From contig JAGRPN010000312.1 of the NCBI GenBank assembly GCA_019449555.1, positions 1-34,327 on the forward strand: a stretch of 34,327 bases of DNA. Direction: 5' to 3'. Below the pieces are notes generated by a model that worked only from the letters and a program-made list of their open reading frames with translations, had not been told where the DNA came from and made no database searches. Positions 28,605 through 33,967 of the stretch are shown here, one piece after another. The translations under genes were made by a program, and so were the position numbers. The first letter of the stretch is position 1, and each line of letters begins with the position of its first letter. This DNA is from Ramlibacter sp. Lineage in GTDB: Bacteria; Pseudomonadota; Gammaproteobacteria; Burkholderiales; Burkholderiaceae_C.

Positions 28605-28985
28605 TCAATGCAGCACGCGGCTGGAGCCGTCGTCGAGCACGAACGCGGGAATCTCCACCTCGAAGCGTTCGCCGTCCTCCGCCACGCAGAAGTAACTGCC
28701 TTGCATGGTGCCGCTCGCGGTGCGCAGGCGGCAGCCGCTGGTGTACTGGAACGCTTCGCCGGGCTTGAGCAGCGGCTGCTGTCCGACCACGCCCAAACCC
28801 TTCACTTCCTCGGTCTGGCCCACCGCGTTGGCAATGATCCAGTGGCGCGAAATCAGTTGCGCCGGCACGTCGCCGGTGTTCGTGATCGTGACGGTGTAAG
28901 CGAAGCTGTAGAGATTCTGGCCGGGTGCGGACTGATCCGGCAGGTATTGGGGATCGACTTCGACCCGGAAGCTGTACTTGGCCAT
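28605..28985 (-). CDS. apaG: ApaG (CorD-like) protein
   Basis: This 126-aa immunoglobulin-like beta-sandwich protein matches ApaG along its full usual length: [75 protein letters not shown] and EIPAFVLDD. Its biochemical role is not settled; in enterobacteria the gene lies with apaH and ksgA, not seen here. ATG 28985 is the only sensible start. It is divergent from rpe with a 44-bp gap that must hold both promoters. TACGAT on the minus strand, 8 bp before the ATG, may be a -10 for a near-leaderless message. Confidence 0.95.
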
Positions 28986-29029
28986 GGGCTCATCGTAACC
29001 TTCCCCCGGCGATTTGCGAGAATCCAGGG

Positions 29030-29713
29030 ATGAGCACCATCCATCGCATCGCTCCGTCCATTCTGTCGGCCGACTTCGCCCGCCTCGGCGAAGAAGTGCG
29101 CTCAGTCATCGCCGGCGGGGCCGACTGGATCCACTTCGACGTGATGGACAACCACTACGTGCCGAACCTCACGTTCGGGCCGATGATCTGCTCGGCCTTG
29201 AAACCGTACGCCGTGACCGCCGACGGCCGGCCGGTTCCGGTGGACGTGCACCTCATGGTCCAGCCGGTGGACGCGCTGGCACAGGCTTTCGCCCAAGCGG
29301 GGGCCGACTGCATCAGCTTCCACCCGGACGCCTCATCGCATGTGCACCGCAGCGTGCAGGCGATCAAGGCGGCCGGCTGCAAGGCCGGGCTGGTGTTCAA
29401 TCCGGCGGCGCCGCTGGACGTGCTCGACTGGATGATCGAGGAGATCGATCTCATCTGCATCATGAGCGTCAATCCCGGCTTCGGCGGCCAGAGCTTCATC
29501 GAGTCGGCTTTGCGCAAGATCGAGCTGGCCCGCCAGCGCATCGACGCATGCGGCAAGGACATCCGGCTCGAGGTCGACGGCGGCATCAAGGTGGACAACA
29601 TCGCCCGGGCGGCGGTCGCCGGCGCCGACACGTTCGTCGCAGGCAGCGCGATCTTCGGCCAGCCCGACTACCGGCGCGTGATCGACGCGATGCGCGCGGC
29701 GCTCAAGGGCTGA
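29030..29713 (+). CDS. rpe: Ribulose-phosphate 3-epimerase
   Basis: This 227-aa TIM-barrel metalloenzyme interconverts ribulose-5-phosphate and xylulose-5-phosphate in the pentose phosphate or Calvin pathway. All key segments are present: [16 protein letters not shown] (Ser, catalytic Asp), [17 protein letters not shown] (metal His/Asp), [43 protein letters not shown] with the second catalytic Asp, and the phosphate loop VAGSAIFG. Start ATG 29030 has AGGG overlapping it; GAGAAT just upstream may be a -10. Its last 11 bp overlap the convergent small gene. Phosphoglycolate phosphatase, frequently downstream in Burkholderiales, is not here. Confidence 0.96.
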
Positions 29714-30008
29714 ATTTCTTCACCGGGTCGGGCGGTTCCTCGCGCAGCTTCTCGTAGGTCTCGTGGAGCACCGGCCCCTTGTCGGTGTCCACCACGCCGC
29801 GCTCGATGTCCTCGCGCCCCAGCTGGGCCGTGCGCTGCGCGGAAGGTTCACTGCTGGCCTGGCTGTCGGCCGATTCGTCGCGCTCGTGCGGCGCGCGCAG
29901 CGAGCGCTCCTGCTTGTCGCCCTGGACCGGGACCGTGTTGCCCTGGCGCGAAGGCCCTTTGTCCTTGGCCGGGGCCTGGCGGCGCCGGCTGGGAATTCGG
30001 TTGTGCAT
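29703..30008 (-). CDS. Conserved small hydrophilic protein, probably disordered
   Basis: This 101-aa protein has very few hydrophobic residues and abundant Arg, Lys, Glu, Asp, Ser, Gln and Pro: [18 protein letters not shown] near the start, then [36 protein letters not shown], and a C-terminus [13 protein letters not shown] recall similar small proteins in Burkholderiales annotated only as hypothetical. Start ATG 30008 is strongly supported by GGAGGA 7 nt upstream. Codon usage fits the genome. It overlaps rpe's 3' end by 11 bp. Such composition and its place beside catalase-like and KGG genes suggest a stress-related or hydrophilin-like role, but no function can be assigned. Confidence 0.75.
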
Positions 30009-30070
30009 GGCGGTGTCCTCCAAACGCAAACGGTTGCAATCAATGGTGCGGTCGCGGCGCATTCCCAGCA

Positions 30071-30143
30071 GTAGGACGCACCGCGTCGCGCTTGTAGGAG
30101 AACGCCTTCGACGCGCGGCCGCGCCGAGTCGGCGCCGTCCTAC
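30071..30143. repeat. REP/BIME-like palindromic element with GTAGGA heads
   Basis: GTAGGACG (30071-30078) is the exact inverse of CGTCCTAC (30136-30143). A second GTAGGA begins at 30094, and a 12-bp palindrome GCGCGGCCGCGC lies at 30113-30124. Paired GTAGGA-type heads facing inwards around GC-rich stems resemble REP/BIME elements of Gammaproteobacteria. It fills the middle of the 250-bp divergent gap (30009-30258), in which I see no other gene. Confidence 0.5.
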
Positions 30144-30258
30144 CTGCAAAGACTGCCTGCGCCGACAAACGCCCCCGCTGCCCAACTACGAACAGTTGCG
30201 CATGAGCTTTCGTATGCTGGAGGCGGTTGGATGCAAGCCTGACGGCAAGGGAGATGCC

Positions 30259-30378
30259 ATGGAGTTGCTCGCCGGAATACCGGATTGGTTGGTCTGGTGC
30301 GCCGCCGGCGCCGCGGGCTTCATCGCCCTGGCCGCACTGGCGAGCATGCTCGATGCCGCGCTCGAGCTGGCGAGCTGA
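30259..30378 (+). CDS. 39-aa putative membrane miniprotein
   Basis: ATG 30259 opens a 39-codon frame, MELLAGIPDWLVWCAAGAAG..., ending ALELAS. AGGGAG lies 5 nt upstream, a good ribosome-binding site. One hydrophobic span (~10-32: WLVWCAAGAAGFIALAALA) fits a single membrane helix with short charged ends. A hairpin terminator follows 25 bp after the stop, which supports a real short transcript. I recognise no family. It is too short for codon statistics to be conclusive, so chance cannot be excluded. The frame is open upstream, but only this start has an SD. Confidence 0.5.
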   Translation: MELLAGIPDWLVWCAAGAAGFIALAALASMLDAALELAS

Positions 30379-30402
30379 AGCCCCCGTTTTCCATCCGCCG
30401 CT

Positions 30403-30424
30403 GCGCCCGTGCCGGGCGCGTTTT
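30403..30424 (+). terminator. Hairpin terminator before the catalase-like gene
   Basis: GCGCCCG (30403-30409), loop TGC and CGGGCGC (30413-30419) form a perfect 7-bp GC stem, followed by G and four T. It separates the 39-aa frame from the catalase-like gene, whose own promoter must lie in the remaining ~37 bp or further upstream. Confidence 0.65.
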
Positions 30425-30461
30425 CGTTGCTTGAACAAGAAAAGCGCCATCGGAGTATCGA

Positions 30462-32615
30462 ATGCCACAGTCCAAGCAGGATGCGCAGCGCAAGTCAAAG
30501 GCCGGCGAGGGCGCGGCCAAGCAAAAGCAGCTGGAGGCGTTCAGCCAGGGACCCGAAAACCTCCTCACCACCAACCAGGGCGTGGTGATCCCGGACAACC
30601 ACAATTCGCTGAAGGCCGGCGTGCGCGGCCCGTCGTTGCTGGAAGACTTCATCCTGCGCGAGAAGATTGCGCATTTCGATCGCGAACGCATCCCCGAGCG
30701 CGTCGTCTATGCGCGCGGTGCGGCAGCGCACGGCTATTTCGAGCTGGCGCGGTCCCTGGTCGAGTACACCAGCGCCGATTTCCTGCAGGAGGCCGGCACC
30801 CGCACGCCCGTGTTCGTCCGATTCTCGGCTGCGTGCGGCTCGCGCGGATCGGCCGATACGGTGCGCGACCAGCGCGGGTTCGCGGTGAAGTTCTATACGC
30901 GCGAGGGCAACTACGACCTCGTGGGCGGGAACATGCCGGTGTCCTTCGTGCAGGACGCGATGAAGTATCCCGACCTGGTGCACGCGATGAAGCCGGAGCC
31001 GCATCACGACATGCCGCAGGCGGCGACGGCGCACGACAGCTTCTGGGATTTCGTCTCGCTCGCGCCGGAGACGACCCACATGCTGATGTGGCTGATGTCC
31101 GACCGCGCGCTGCCGCGCAGCTACCGGATGATGGAGGGCTTCGGCGTGCACACGTTTCGCCTGGTCAATGCGAAGGGCGTGCCGCACTTCGTCAAATTCC
31201 TCTGGAAACCCCGATTGGGCAAGCACGCGTTGCTGTGGGACGAGGCGCAGAAGATCGCCGGCAAGGACCCGGACTTCCACCGGCGCGACCTCTGGGAGGC
31301 GATCGCCCAAGGCAATTTCCCGGAGTGGGAACTCGGGCTGCAGCTGATCGAGCAGAGCAAGGCCGACACGCTCGGCTTCGACCTGCTGGACCCGACCAAA
31401 TTGATTCCGGAAGAGATCGTTCCGGTGCTCACCGTGGGCAAGCTGGTGCTCAATCGCAACCCCGACAATTTTTTCGCCGAGACCGAGCAGGTCGCGTTCC
31501 ACCCGGGCCATGTGGTCCCCGGCATCGACTTCAGCAACGATCCGTTGTTGCAGGGGCGGCTGTTCTCGTACACCGACACGCAGATGGCGCGCCTGGGCGG
31601 GCCGAACCTGCACGAGCTGCCGATCAACCGCGGCTTGTGCCCGGTCCACAATTTCCAGCGCGACGGCCAGCACCGCATGCTGGTGAACAAGGGACAGGTG
31701 GCGTACGAACCGAACTCGCTGACTAGCGGCGCGGAATTCCGCGTCGATGGCGGCCGGCAGGGTTTCCAGAGCTACCCGGATGCGCTGGAGCCGCCCAAGA
31801 CGCGGCGCCGCAGCCCGAGCTTCGACGATCACTTCAGCCAGGCCGCGCTGTTCTGGAACAGCCAGAGCCCGGTGGAACGGGACCACATCATTGCCGCCTT
31901 CCAGTTCGAACTTTGCAAGGTGGAAACGCCGGCGGTGCGGCAGCGCGTCGTGGACAACCTCGCGCACGTGGACGCGAAGCTGGCCCGCAAAGTGGCGGAG
32001 CCGCTCGGGATCGCCGTTCCCGATCCGAAGGCCGCGGCCGGACGGGCGGGCTTTCGTGACGTGCGCGCCAAGCTGCCGATCGAAGCGTCGGCCGCCCTCA
32101 GCATGGAAGGCAATGGCGGTAGTATCGCCACCCGCAAGGTCGCCGTGCTGGTGGCCGGCGGTGTGGAGCTGGGCGCGTTGCGCGTGATCCAGCAGGCGCT
32201 GCAGGACGCCGGTGCCAGCTGCCGCATCGTCGCGGCCCATCTGGGCTTCGTCGCGACCTCCTCGGGCCAGCAGCTGGCCGTGGATCACACTTTCGCCACG
32301 ATGCCGTCGGTGATGTTCGACGCCGTGCTGGTCCCCGGCGGGGCGGCGAGCGCCGAGGCGCTGGCGCGCGATGGCGACGCGGTGCATTTCGCGCTGGAGG
32401 CGTACAAGCATTGCAAACCGCTGTGCGTCATCGGCGAGGGCCTGCAGTTGCTTGGTACGCTGGGCATCAAGCTCGGGGAGACGGCCGGCGTGCCGGGCGT
32501 GCTGGTCGGAAAGAACGATCCGCCGGCGCGCGCGCAACTGGCGCAGGACTTCATCGCCGCCATCGCGCGGCATCGCCACTGGGCCCGGCCGAACCTCGAG
32601 GGCATCCCGGCCTGA
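30462..32615 (+). CDS. Large-subunit catalase-family heme protein with altered distal pocket (KatE/HPII-like)
   Basis: The 717-aa protein has the clade 2 catalase layout: a catalase barrel and helical region (~30-500), linker, and C-terminal DJ-1/PfpI-like domain (~575-717; VAVLVAGGVELGALRV, AVLVPGG, CVIGEG, without a nucleophile Cys). The proximal heme ligand is kept: Arg366 and Tyr370 in LLQGRLFSYTDTQ. Arg80, Ser122 and channel Asp136 also match HPII. However, the catalytic distal His (HPII His128, RIVHARG) is Tyr83 here (RVVYARG), and the distal Asn (HPII Asn201 in VGNNTP) is Gly156 (VGGNMP). HPII Val169 and Phe206 correspond to Ala124 and Ser161. The spacing Tyr83-Tyr370 equals His128-Tyr415 exactly, so the alignment is not in doubt. 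Heme binding is likely; normal catalase activity is unlikely. SD GGAG precedes ATG 30462. Confidence 0.93.
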   Translation: MPQSKQDAQRKSKAGEGAAKQKQLEAFSQGPENLLTTNQGVVIPDNHNSLKAGVRGPSLLEDFILREKIAHFDRERIPERVVYARGAAAHGYFELARSLVEYTSADFLQEAGTRTPVFVRFSAACGSRGSADTVRDQRGFAVKFYTREGNYDLVGGNMPVSFVQDAMKYPDLVHAMKPEPHHDMPQAATAHDSFWDFVSLAPETTHMLMWLMSDRALPRSYRMMEGFGVHTFRLVNAKGVPHFVKFLWKPRLGKHALLWDEAQKIAGKDPDFHRRDLWEAIAQGNFPEWELGLQLIEQSKADTLGFDLLDPTKLIPEEIVPVLTVGKLVLNRNPDNFFAETEQVAFHPGHVVPGIDFSNDPLLQGRLFSYTDTQMARLGGPNLHELPINRGLCPVHNFQRDGQHRMLVNKGQVAYEPNSLTSGAEFRVDGGRQGFQSYPDALEPPKTRRRSPSFDDHFSQAALFWNSQSPVERDHIIAAFQFELCKVETPAVRQRVVDNLAHVDAKLARKVAEPLGIAVPDPKAAAGRAGFRDVRAKLPIEASAALSMEGNGGSIATRKVAVLVAGGVELGALRVIQQALQDAGASCRIVAAHLGFVATSSGQQLAVDHTFATMPSVMFDAVLVPGGAASAEALARDGDAVHFALEAYKHCKPLCVIGEGLQLLGTLGIKLGETAGVPGVLVGKNDPPARAQLAQDFIAAIARHRHWARPNLEGIPA

Positions 32616-32759
32616 GAGCCGGGCTGAACCTGCAGCCCGACAGCAGGCCCTTCCTACGGCCGGTTGACTCGCACGCTTACTCCGGCGCCCGCTAGCGAGT
32701 CCCCAAATACGCCGGGTAGCCGGCACGGTGCTGGCTGCGATTCATTGCAGGAGATCACG

Positions 32760-33167
32760 ATGGCATCGAATAACCAGGGGAACGCGGGCGGCGGCACCAA
32801 GGCCGGCGGCACGTCCAACCGCGGCTTCGCCTCCATGGACCCGGAGCGCCAGCGCGAAATCGCCCGGGAAGGCGGCAAGGCGGCCCACCAAAAGGGCACG
32901 GCCCACGAGTTCACGTCCGAGGAAGCTCGCCAGGCCGGCAGCAAGGGAGGCCAGGCCGCTCACGAAAAAGGCACGGCCCACGAATTCGATTCGGACGAAG
33001 CGCGTGAAGCAGGCCGCAAGGGCGGCCAGGCCAGCCACGAAAAGGGAACGGCCCACGAGTTCGACTCCGAGGAGGCGCGCGAGGCCGGCCGCAAGGGCGG
33101 GCAGGCCAGTCACGGCGCCGGCAATCAGGGCACCGGGCATCAGGGCGGATCGAGCGCCAAACGCTAA
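32760..33167 (+). CDS. KGG-repeat general stress protein
   Basis: This 135-aa highly hydrophilic protein contains tandem KGG motifs (GsiB/YciG-like stress_induced KGG family). After a Gly/Asn-rich head and the typical opening FASMDPERQREIAREGGKAAH, a 25-residue unit repeats: GGKAAHQKGTAHEF..., GGQAAHEKGTAHEF..., GGQASHEKGTAHEF..., ending with a partial GGQASH. Relatives are induced by RpoS-type or general stress and are hydrophilin-like. ATG 32760 is chosen with AGGAG upstream; the frame is open to 32664 but without a ribosome-binding site. An inverted repeat ACTCGC/GCGAGT (32667-32672, 32695-32700) lies in the leader. A terminator follows the gene. Confidence 0.93.
   Translation: MASNNQGNAGGGTKAGGTSNRGFASMDPERQREIAREGGKAAHQKGTAHEFTSEEARQAGSKGGQAAHEKGTAHEFDSDEAREAGRKGGQASHEKGTAHEFDSEEAREAGRKGGQASHGAGNQGTGHQGGSSAKR
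32871..33115 (+). repeat. 75-bp in-frame tandem repeat inside the KGG gene
   Basis: Units begin at 32871, 32946 and 33021, with a partial fourth at 33096, each exactly 75 bp and encoding 25 residues. Units 2 and 3 are most alike at both DNA and protein levels, which suggests recent duplication or gene conversion. Confidence 0.9.
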
Positions 33168-33184: not shown

Positions 33185-33214
33185 GGGGGGCGCGCCGTGC
33201 GGCCCCTTTTTTTT
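33185..33214 (+). terminator. Rho-independent terminator after the KGG gene
   Basis: A G-run (33185-33190) followed by CGCGCCGTGCGGCCCC (33191-33206) forms GGGGCGC...GCGGCCCC with a one-base bulge, followed by eight T (33207-33214). It lies 18 bp after the KGG stop and immediately before the next gene. Confidence 0.85.
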
Positions 33215-33241
33215 CCCGGTTCGCGCAAAATGGCGGGTTGC

Positions 33242-33967
33242 ATGCCGCCTGACCATCGCACCACCCAGAACCATCTGCTCGCCGCGTTTCCGACCGCGGA
33301 ATACGAACGCCTCGCGGCCGATCTCGAACTGGTCGCGATGCCGCTCGGCCAGGTGCTATGCGAATCCGGGGGGCAATTGCGGCATATCTATTTCCCCACC
33401 ACGGCGATCATTTCCCTGCTCTACGTCCTGGAAGACGGCGCATCCGCGGAAATCGCCGTGGTTGGCAACGAGGGACTCCTGGGCATCTCGCTGTTCATGG
33501 GCGGGGAAACCACGCCCAGCCGCGCCGTCGTTCGCAGCGCGGGCCATGGTTACCGGCTAAAGGCCGAACTGCTGCAGCGGGAATTCAGCCGCGCCGGCCC
33601 GGTGCTGCGATTGCTGCTGCGTTACACCCAGGCGCTCATCACGCAAATGACGCAGACAGCGGTGTGCAACCGGCACCATTCGGTCGAACAGCAGTTGTGC
33701 CGCGCGCTGCTGCTCAGCCTGGATCGGCTCTCCTGCAATTCGCTCACGATGACCCAGGAACTGATCGCCAACATGCTGGGCGTGCGCCGCGAGGGCGTGA
33801 CGGAGGCGGCCGGTAACCTGCAACGCGCGGGCCTGATCCGCTACAGCCGCGGGCACATCGACGTGCTGGACCGGCCCGGGCTCGAAAAAGCCGTCTGCGA
33901 GTGCTACCGCGTGGTGAAGGTGGAGTTCGACCGGCTGTTGTCGGACATTCCGCGCGAATTGCCATAG
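33242..33967 (+). CDS. Crp/Fnr family transcriptional regulator
   Basis: This ~241-aa regulator has an N-terminal cyclic-nucleotide-binding-like beta-roll (~15-115: LVAMPLGQVLCESGGQLRHIYFPTTAI, EIAVVGNEGLLGISLFMGG), a dimer helix and a C-terminal winged HTH (~165-225: LTMTQELIANMLGVRREGVTEAAGNLQRAGLIRY). The cNMP phosphate-binding Arg/Ser pattern of Crp is not obvious, and the Fnr N-terminal Cys cluster is absent, so the signal is unknown; three Cys occur in the linker region. Start is either ATG 33242 (MPPDHRTTQNH, preferred from family resemblance) or ATG 33230. CAAAAT overlaps the upstream ATG and may be a -10 for a leaderless message. A PAS sensor gene follows. Confidence 0.9.
   Translation: MPPDHRTTQNHLLAAFPTAEYERLAADLELVAMPLGQVLCESGGQLRHIYFPTTAIISLLYVLEDGASAEIAVVGNEGLLGISLFMGGETTPSRAVVRSAGHGYRLKAELLQREFSRAGPVLRLLLRYTQALITQMTQTAVCNRHHSVEQQLCRALLLSLDRLSCNSLTMTQELIANMLGVRREGVTEAAGNLQRAGLIRYSRGHIDVLDRPGLEKAVCECYRVVKVEFDRLLSDIPRELP

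Follow-up and report, generated by a model that had tools for sequence, protein, structure and literature searches.

In heme catalases, a distal His and a distal Asn promote the formation of compound I. The distal His has been called essential (PMC9687031), the H128N variant of HPII, the large-subunit catalase of Escherichia coli, is described as inactive (PMC9687031, PMC10836395), and both heme d formation and the crosslink of the proximal Tyr are stated to require catalase activity (PMC9687031). The C-terminal domain of large-subunit catalases has also been reported to hold a chaperone activity, which is missing in forms without this domain (PMC9687031, PMC10135305). A heme protein that has the catalase fold but takes no part in H2O2 scavenging has been described as well, the coral allene oxide synthase (cAOS) (PMC5617202). 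This work deals with katE2, a gene for a large-subunit catalase paralog in which both distal residues have been replaced. It is encoded in a stretch of 34,327 nucleotides from Ramlibacter sp. (GenBank assembly GCA_019449555.1, contig JAGRPN010000312.1), referred to as the window. The names KatE1 and KatE2 were coined in this analysis. No description of a catalase group without the distal His was found in the excerpts of the open-licence literature that were covered, most subscription papers lying outside this scope, and the main text of the genome paper of Ramlibacter tataouinensis (PMC3164672) mentions neither catalase, nor peroxidase, nor katE.

The window protein

The product of katE2 holds the Pfam domains PF00199 (579 bits), PF06628, PF18011 and PF01965, and its alignment with E. 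coli HPII scores 813 bits and extends from residue 20 to residue 717, that is, to the end. The gate loop, PQAATAH at residues 185-191, fits the P-Q-A/G-Q/A-S/T-A-H rule (PMC9687031). Its domains, gate loop, proximal Tyr/Arg and propionate Arg residues are those of a large-subunit (clade 2) heme catalase by descent, and the essential distal His and catalytic Asn of a functional heme catalase are missing, Tyr83 and Gly156 standing in their places. Judged from its sequence, the window protein is by descent a large-subunit catalase, but it does not have the residues expected of a functional one. The window protein also scores 1042 bits against NCBIfam NF008422 (catalase HPII equivalog), under the cut-off of 1102 bits. 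Scores below this value were likewise obtained for L126, a KatE2 sequence with distal losses (907), for L004, a KatE2 that keeps His and Asn (1096), and for the KatE1 sequence L001 (1005, translated in part), and since these last two also fall below it, the cut-off is not diagnostic of residue loss.

Through the pocket, HPII numbers equal those of the window protein plus 45, because the sole gap before the active site lies near residue 35 of the query. An earlier note on this DNA had claimed that His128, Asn201, Phe206 and Val169 of HPII are replaced by Tyr83, Gly156, Ser161 and Ala124, while proximal Tyr370/Arg366, Arg80, Ser122 and Asp136 are kept; the alignment, free of gaps over the replaced positions, bears out both claims, and the replacing codons were read directly (Table 1). 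HPII Phe214, which is Tyr169 in the window protein, has changed as well. The residues retained, with HPII numbers in brackets, are Arg80 (R125), Arg120 (R165), Ser122 (S167), Asp136 (D181), His347 (H392), Arg366 (R411) and Tyr370 (Y415), among which we take Arg125, Arg165 and Arg411 of HPII to have propionate or heme-anchoring roles. The note was also right that the gene is whole and not decaying, given its open frame, the presence of the C-terminal domain and purifying selection, and its opinion that normal catalase chemistry is unlikely with both distal residues replaced is shared here.

A predicted structure of the window protein (42 rows) has a mean predicted local distance difference test (pLDDT) value of 71, with values below 50 at residues 1-20, 23-85 (including Tyr83), 126-132, 182-190, 344-346 and 386-449. 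The 50 matches listed by Foldseek for this structure are all KatE/HPII chains. The root-mean-square deviation over the chain is about 14 Å and, given this deviation and the low pLDDT, the prediction shows the fold only and is no basis for pocket geometry.

Recurrent loss of the distal pair

Sixty genomes of the genus were searched, of which 55 have KatE2 and five gave no KatE2 match, and family relatives (399 genomes sampled) and named contigs were added to them. The 220 loci gathered correspond to 193 distinct translations, and the exclusion of six partial ones (L136-L140, L216) left 187 rows for the trees. KatE2 was first counted in 105 rows, but L210, in which His and Asn are kept, fell outside the clade and was removed. 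The remaining 104 rows, including the window protein, form a clade with local support of 99 and 100 in two trees, and represent the second KatE of the Ramlibacter/Caenimonas group and its kin.

Within this clade, His128 has been lost in 35 rows (35/103 of those with a residue at that position), Asn201 in 28, both in 23, and either of them in 40; these 40 are referred to as loss rows, and the rows that retain both residues as keepers. Outside KatE2, His128 and Asn201 are kept in 82 of 82 HPII-type rows, and likewise in L210 as the 83rd. On a tree built without the pocket columns, parsimony requires at least 13 changes in the kept or lost state of His128, or 18 losses if no regain is admitted, and five changes for Asn201, also five as losses without regain; these counts refer to one best tree, in which 27 of the 107 inner branches are weakly supported.

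His128 has been replaced by Asn (12 rows), Tyr (12), Phe (7), Gly (3) and Trp (1), and Asn201 by Ala (16), Ser (10), Cys (1) and Gly (1). Because the replacements differ between lineages (Y/F/N/G/W at 128), no shared new catalytic residue is apparent. Position 128 is not simply free, since of the seven residues that a single codon step from His can give, five (Asp, Leu, Pro, Gln and Arg) are absent from it. The change T168N appears in 16 of the 40 loss rows, within both of the clades named loss clades A and B. All 40 loss rows keep R125, R165, F391, L407, R411 and Y415, and none of them has an in-frame stop. As heme d and the Tyr crosslink need catalase activity, heme b without a crosslink is predicted for His-lost KatE2. 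The position of HPII His392 is occupied by Asn in 13/40 loss rows versus 6/64 others, these six being one clade, a frequency in line with this prediction.

In L010, which is sister to the window gene, position 128 is Phe and position 201 is Ala, and the loss in the window lineage is a young one, because the next relatives L004 (= L033, the closest ortholog with both residues) and L012 retain His and Asn. Other losses are older, for instance that of Asn201 which took place at the base of a clade of 18 rows. A His-lost KatE2 is also present in R. rhizophilus (L050). Judged from the tree, the loss rows are not one subfamily. The idea raised in the earlier note that homologs bearing Tyr might form one clade does not hold, as the losses are scattered and the closest relatives bar L010, which are 84-85% identical, keep His and Asn. 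According to the same note, scattered homologs with His in close relatives would point to a sequencing error or a strain mutation. The scattered pattern is indeed what was found, but neither of these is its cause, since a single ortholog group has seen the loss 13-18 times. A sequencing or assembly error is further countered by the coincidence of several pocket changes, by Phe/Ala in the sister L010, and by the recurrence of losses across many genomes, one of which consists of a single contig (L117, G040); the window residues themselves are known from one assembly. Open frames and the codon analysis given below rule out a pseudogene, and a mis-paired paralog is ruled out by the tree and, within the genus, by synteny.

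Several KatE2 rows show other departures. In L124, L128 and L133-L135, His128 is kept and Asn201 has become Ala; four of these five genomes are without KatE1, and the proteins are possibly low-activity intermediates. L208 (G075:C69), a His/Asn keeper with Tyr415 changed to Ser and Asn202 to Ser, is the sole ligand-less row among the 104. A different pocket change is seen in the clade L063-L067 and L069, with distal His and Asn kept, V169A, His392 changed to Asn, and F206Y in five of the six rows. L138 (G049) is a His/Asn-keeping KatE2 split across two frames in a single-contig genome that is 63 percent complete, and L011 (G041), also keeping His and Asn, has one in-frame TAG. A degenerate pattern covering Tyr or Phe in one motif matched 25 times in 399 genomes of the order, a sample that includes one genome of the genus, and only two of these matches fall within a catalase, one being the window gene and the other KatE2 in G079; most matches are due to chance, because a control with the reversed pattern gave 15.

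Selection on katE2

Codon analysis was expressed as omega, the ratio of nonsynonymous to synonymous substitution rates (dN/dS). For the whole gene, omega is 0.079 in the genus keepers (19), 0.107 in the family keepers (44) and 0.075 in KatE1 (33), and takes values of 0.143 in loss clade A (18 rows) and 0.077 in loss clade B (7 rows). Around the window gene, it is 0.070 for eight rows versus 0.063 for six keepers among its kin, and pairwise dN/dS between the window gene and six relatives ranges from 0.107 to 0.166. In the same 13 genomes, omega is 0.082 for KatE1 and 0.154 for KatE2. When the protein is divided, omega at the 34 positions of the distal pocket is 0.022 in both keepers and KatE1 and rises to 0.143 in clade A and 0.077 in clade B, and for the core without the pocket it rises from 0.058 to 0.123 and 0.062, respectively. 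The C-terminal domain shows 0.101 in keepers and 0.132 in KatE1, versus 0.156 in clade A and 0.085 in clade B. The distal pocket accounts for most of the release of constraint, and the C-terminal domain is still under constraint.

Site by site, 184 positions are conserved at 97 percent or more in the keepers and the other HPII rows, L208 being excluded from the keepers in this and in the following comparison, and 75 of them deviate in at least one of the 40 loss rows. The most released sites are His128, Phe529, Thr168, Asn201, Ser414, Asn202, Asp118, Trp304, Asp417 and Phe214. Five positions lining the channel or cavity, taken from the residue list of PMC10836395 with His128 and Asn201 omitted, deviate on average in 34 percent of the loss rows; the corresponding figure for all 378 sites at which conservation among keepers reaches 88 percent or more is 9 percent. 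This level was reached by 46 of 20,000 random draws, and the mean is driven by Val169 (0.93), with Asp181 at 0.03. Six heme-side positions, selected from the HPII structure, never deviate in the loss rows, and 183 of 20,000 random draws were as low.

KatE1 in the same genomes

Besides KatE2, a single further PF00199 match is encoded in the window genome (5.1 Mb in 458 contigs, 96 percent complete), which its named relatives group with Ramlibacter and Caenimonas. This match, the KatE1 sequence L001 (G000:C358), has an intact distal pocket and is about 57 percent identical to the window protein. The state of KatE2 was read in 54 of the 55 genus genomes, with G001 left out of the KatE1 count, and KatE1 is present in 26/28 His-lost versus 14/26 His-keeping genomes (Fisher p 0.0015). 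Among those at least 90 percent complete, the figures are 25/26 and 10/18, and with the family genomes added, two candidates being scored per genome, 30/32 and 33/55.

Possible functions of KatE2

The explanation preferred here, to which we give a probability of about one half, is that katE2 encodes a pseudo-catalase which is kept for a role in stress, as a scaffold that bears heme or as a chaperone, and which KatE1 often backs up. KatE2 is usually accompanied in the genome by a canonical KatE1 able to carry the catalatic load, and many KatE2 lineages have dispensed with the distal acid-base pair and altered the distal pocket and the main channel. The protein would presumably still bind heme, as the intact Tyr/Arg anchors suggest, and it retains the large-subunit architecture with its Hsp31/DJ-1-like C-terminal domain. 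Selection would now act on a catalase-independent scaffold function, foremost a C-terminal chaperone activity under stress. We infer that His-lost KatE2 proteins bind heme, form a tetramer and run no catalatic cycle, the lack of turnover being suggested by the inactivity of HPII H128N together with the natural occurrence of Asn128 in 12 rows. A chaperone or scaffold role is hypothesized because it would best explain constraint without catalysis together with lineage-specific replacements. Somewhat more tentatively, these proteins may be recurrently evolved heme-bound pseudo-catalases, one genus and some kin having discarded catalysis at least a dozen times with the scaffold being selected.

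Several observations weigh against this explanation. The catalase core without the pocket is still constrained (0.062-0.123), beyond what a pure chaperone would seem to need, and the C-terminal domain is no better conserved in loss rows than in keepers. T168N in both loss clades may hint at a common pocket function. The omega values are one ratio per set, point values without confidence intervals, and clade A (0.143) stands less far apart once the family keepers (0.107) are considered; the pocket contrast is moreover partly built in, because the 34 positions were picked after the losses had been seen and include the loss sites. The association with KatE1 is weakened by relatedness and is non-significant in a sign test on independent pairs (only seven on starred branches, nine on all branches), with on average 1.9 for and 0.3 against and a median p of 0.5. 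In G018, which is listed as 100 percent complete, a KatE2 that has lost His and Asn (L126, G018:C137) is the only PF00199 match, with no KatG and no Mn-catalase match either, which speaks against a simple backup, and the same holds for G038 (80 percent complete). The chaperone work cited concerns the fungal CAT-1 and CAT-3 (PMC9687031, PMC10135305). Finally, rpe, the upstream neighbour of katE2 within the genus, lies beside it in only 7/51 rows outside, and beyond the genus the orthology of katE2 therefore rests on the tree.

The main rival, which we consider unlikely, is a neofunctionalised heme enzyme with an opened pocket for larger substrates, acting as a peroxidase or transforming organic or lipid hydroperoxides without the distal His. 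The heme anchors kept in 40/40 loss rows, the constraint on the catalase core and the presence of T168N in both loss clades would fit such an enzyme, as would the reduced residue size at four positions in the pocket of the window protein and the finding that the channel-widening V111A raises the peroxidatic activity of yeast catalase A (PMC9687031). Sister lineages nevertheless differ at position 128 with no common new catalytic residue, and this diversity of replacements disfavours one new distal-side chemistry. The earlier note had proposed peroxidase, allene oxide synthase-like and sensor functions, none of which has gained positive support. The analogy with allene oxide synthase breaks down because the coral enzyme keeps distal His67, Thr66 and Asn137, and both cAOS and cHPL from coral retain the catalase distal residues (PMC5617202). 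No lipoxygenase-type domain was found by Pfam among the neighbouring window genes scanned. A sensor, that is, a heme-based or ligand-binding stress protein responding to NO, CO, H2S or peroxide with a partner protein, appears improbable. Heme anchors are kept while distal chemistry is lost, the window and some relatives have a gene for a Crp-like regulator near katE2, and HPII is able to bind Hfq with its activity unaffected (PMC3819363). On the other side, Pfam detects no signalling domain in the window protein, only a minority of rows, chiefly those that keep His, have the Crp gene close to katE2, and the distal residues expected to tune ligand binding vary.

It is slightly less improbable than a sensor, and still poorly favoured, that KatE2 remains a catalase, either of low speed or one in which the acid-base role has passed to other residues. 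Ser167 and Asp181 are retained in the window protein, and five loss rows keep His128 and have lost only Asn201, four of them in genomes (81-93% complete) without another PF00199 or KatG match. However, exactly the substitution reported to inactivate HPII, H128N, is present in 12 rows (PMC9687031, PMC10836395), and His128 is universal (82/82 rows) outside the clade. The least credible explanation is relaxed selection toward gene loss with no remaining function. The omega of clade A is about twice that of the genus keepers (0.143 vs 0.079), KatE2 exceeds KatE1 in the same 13 genomes (0.154 vs 0.082), and five of 60 genus genomes are without a KatE2 match. Nonetheless, clade B stays at the keeper level (0.077), stops are absent from all loss rows, the gene is retained in 55 of 60 genomes, the six heme anchors are invariant in the loss rows, and five of the seven one-step neighbours of His never occur at 128.

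If KatE2 is indeed a scaffold without catalysis, large-subunit catalases would be a source of a non-enzymatic stress chaperone or a heme-state-dependent protein. As an ortholog group that has repeatedly lost the distal His with its heme anchors untouched, KatE2 provides a natural experiment on further roles of large-subunit catalases, and makes it testable whether a chaperone or scaffold role is selectable without catalase activity. It is also a warning that a catalase annotation may stand on genes whose products do not have this activity.

The katE2 locus

Within the genus, rpe is just upstream of katE2 in 50/53 rows, the window included, in keepers and losers alike, and the remaining three stretches (L010, L116, L132) end before rpe. 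Where a stretch reaches that far, apaG is next beyond rpe. Longer stretches continue with gshA and a Na/H antiporter gene. This is the case in 14 genus rows, which are all loss rows since the flanks retrieved for most keepers were short, and also in L206 and L208, two family keepers. In L117 the antiporter is further away, and L129 and L133-L135 have neither gene. Within the genus, katE2 is the same gene in the same place, the locus itself being conserved only in the genus and a few kin.

Table 1. Features of the katE2 region, in window coordinates.
Feature	Position	Strand	Basis
rpe, syntenic anchor upstream of katE2 within the genus (context only)	28925..29713	+	Pfam, neighbourhood comparison
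katE2, large-subunit catalase paralog, distal catalytic residues replaced	30462..32615	+	717 aa open reading frame, HPII alignment, Pfam
Catalase core domain PF00199, residues 36-420	30567..31721	+	Pfam
Arg80 (HPII Arg125), kept in 40/40 loss rows	30699..30701	+	alignment, codon read
Tyr83 replacing distal His (HPII His128), codon TAT	30708..30710	+	alignment, codon read directly
Ala123-Ala124 replacing HPII Thr168-Val169, codons GCT GCG	30828..30833	+	alignment, codons read directly (GCG at 30831)
Gly156 replacing distal Asn (HPII Asn201), codon GGG	30927..30929	+	alignment, codon read directly
Ser161 replacing HPII Phe206, codon TCC	30942..30944	+	alignment, codon read directly
Proximal Arg366 to Tyr370 (HPII Arg411, Tyr415), heme ligand side, kept	31557..31571	+	translation, alignment
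Catalase-rel domain PF06628, residues 451-513	31812..32000	+	Pfam
C-terminal Catalase_C / DJ-1-PfpI domain, residues 556-709	32127..32588	+	Pfam
KGG-repeat stress protein gene, just downstream of katE2 (context only)	32664..33167	+	Pfam, neighbourhood comparison
Crp-like regulator gene, downstream of katE2	33197..33967	+	neighbourhood comparison

Between rpe and katE2, an open reading frame of 160 residues without a Pfam match (29703-30185, minus strand) has counterparts at 41-69 percent identity in the corresponding position of many genus loci, and is possibly a small conserved gene of the locus. The KGG gene adjoins katE2 in about one third of the genus rows, both His-keeping and His-lost, and the Crp gene is found near katE2 in fewer rows, mostly keepers. 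Two antisense frames overlap katE2. The one at 30320-30691 (minus strand) is seemingly conserved, but covers the start of katE2 and was rejected as an artefact, and the other, of 743 residues (30495-32726, minus strand), mirrors katE2 and is taken as a by-product of GC-rich coding DNA and not as a gene. A plasmid origin was also rejected, as katE2 has no close plasmid relative: 537 of 72,556 plasmid records match it, of which 532 share less than 60 percent identity and the other five 60-80 percent, the best of the 30 listed being 60.2 percent identical.

Comparison with known systems

The Neurospora catalases CAT-1 and CAT-3 share with KatE2 the same kind of Hsp31/DJ-1-derived C-terminal domain, which in KatE2 is under purifying selection. 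They differ in being active catalases, the chaperone activity of KatE2 being hypothetical. Coral cAOS is fused to a lipoxygenase and keeps its distal residues (PMC5617202), while katE2 of the window has neither feature. KatE1 (L001) is likewise an HPII-type protein and is encoded in the same genome, but it keeps the distal His, Ser, Thr, Val, Asn, Asn and Phe, has Cys at HPII position 392, and belongs to another locus and another clade.

The closest likeness is to E. coli HPII, with full-length homology, the same domain order, proximal Tyr/Arg, propionate Arg residues, gate loop and gate Glu, from which the window protein departs by the replacement of His128, Asn201, Thr168, Val169, Phe206 and Phe214. 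Among the laboratory variants of HPII, H128A, H128N, N201A and N201H (PDB 1ggh, 1gg9, 1ggj, 1ggk), Asn128 and Ala201 also exist in nature, in 12 and 16 rows, respectively. Compared with these variants, most natural KatE2 rows add further pocket changes, and the window protein combines Tyr with Gly.

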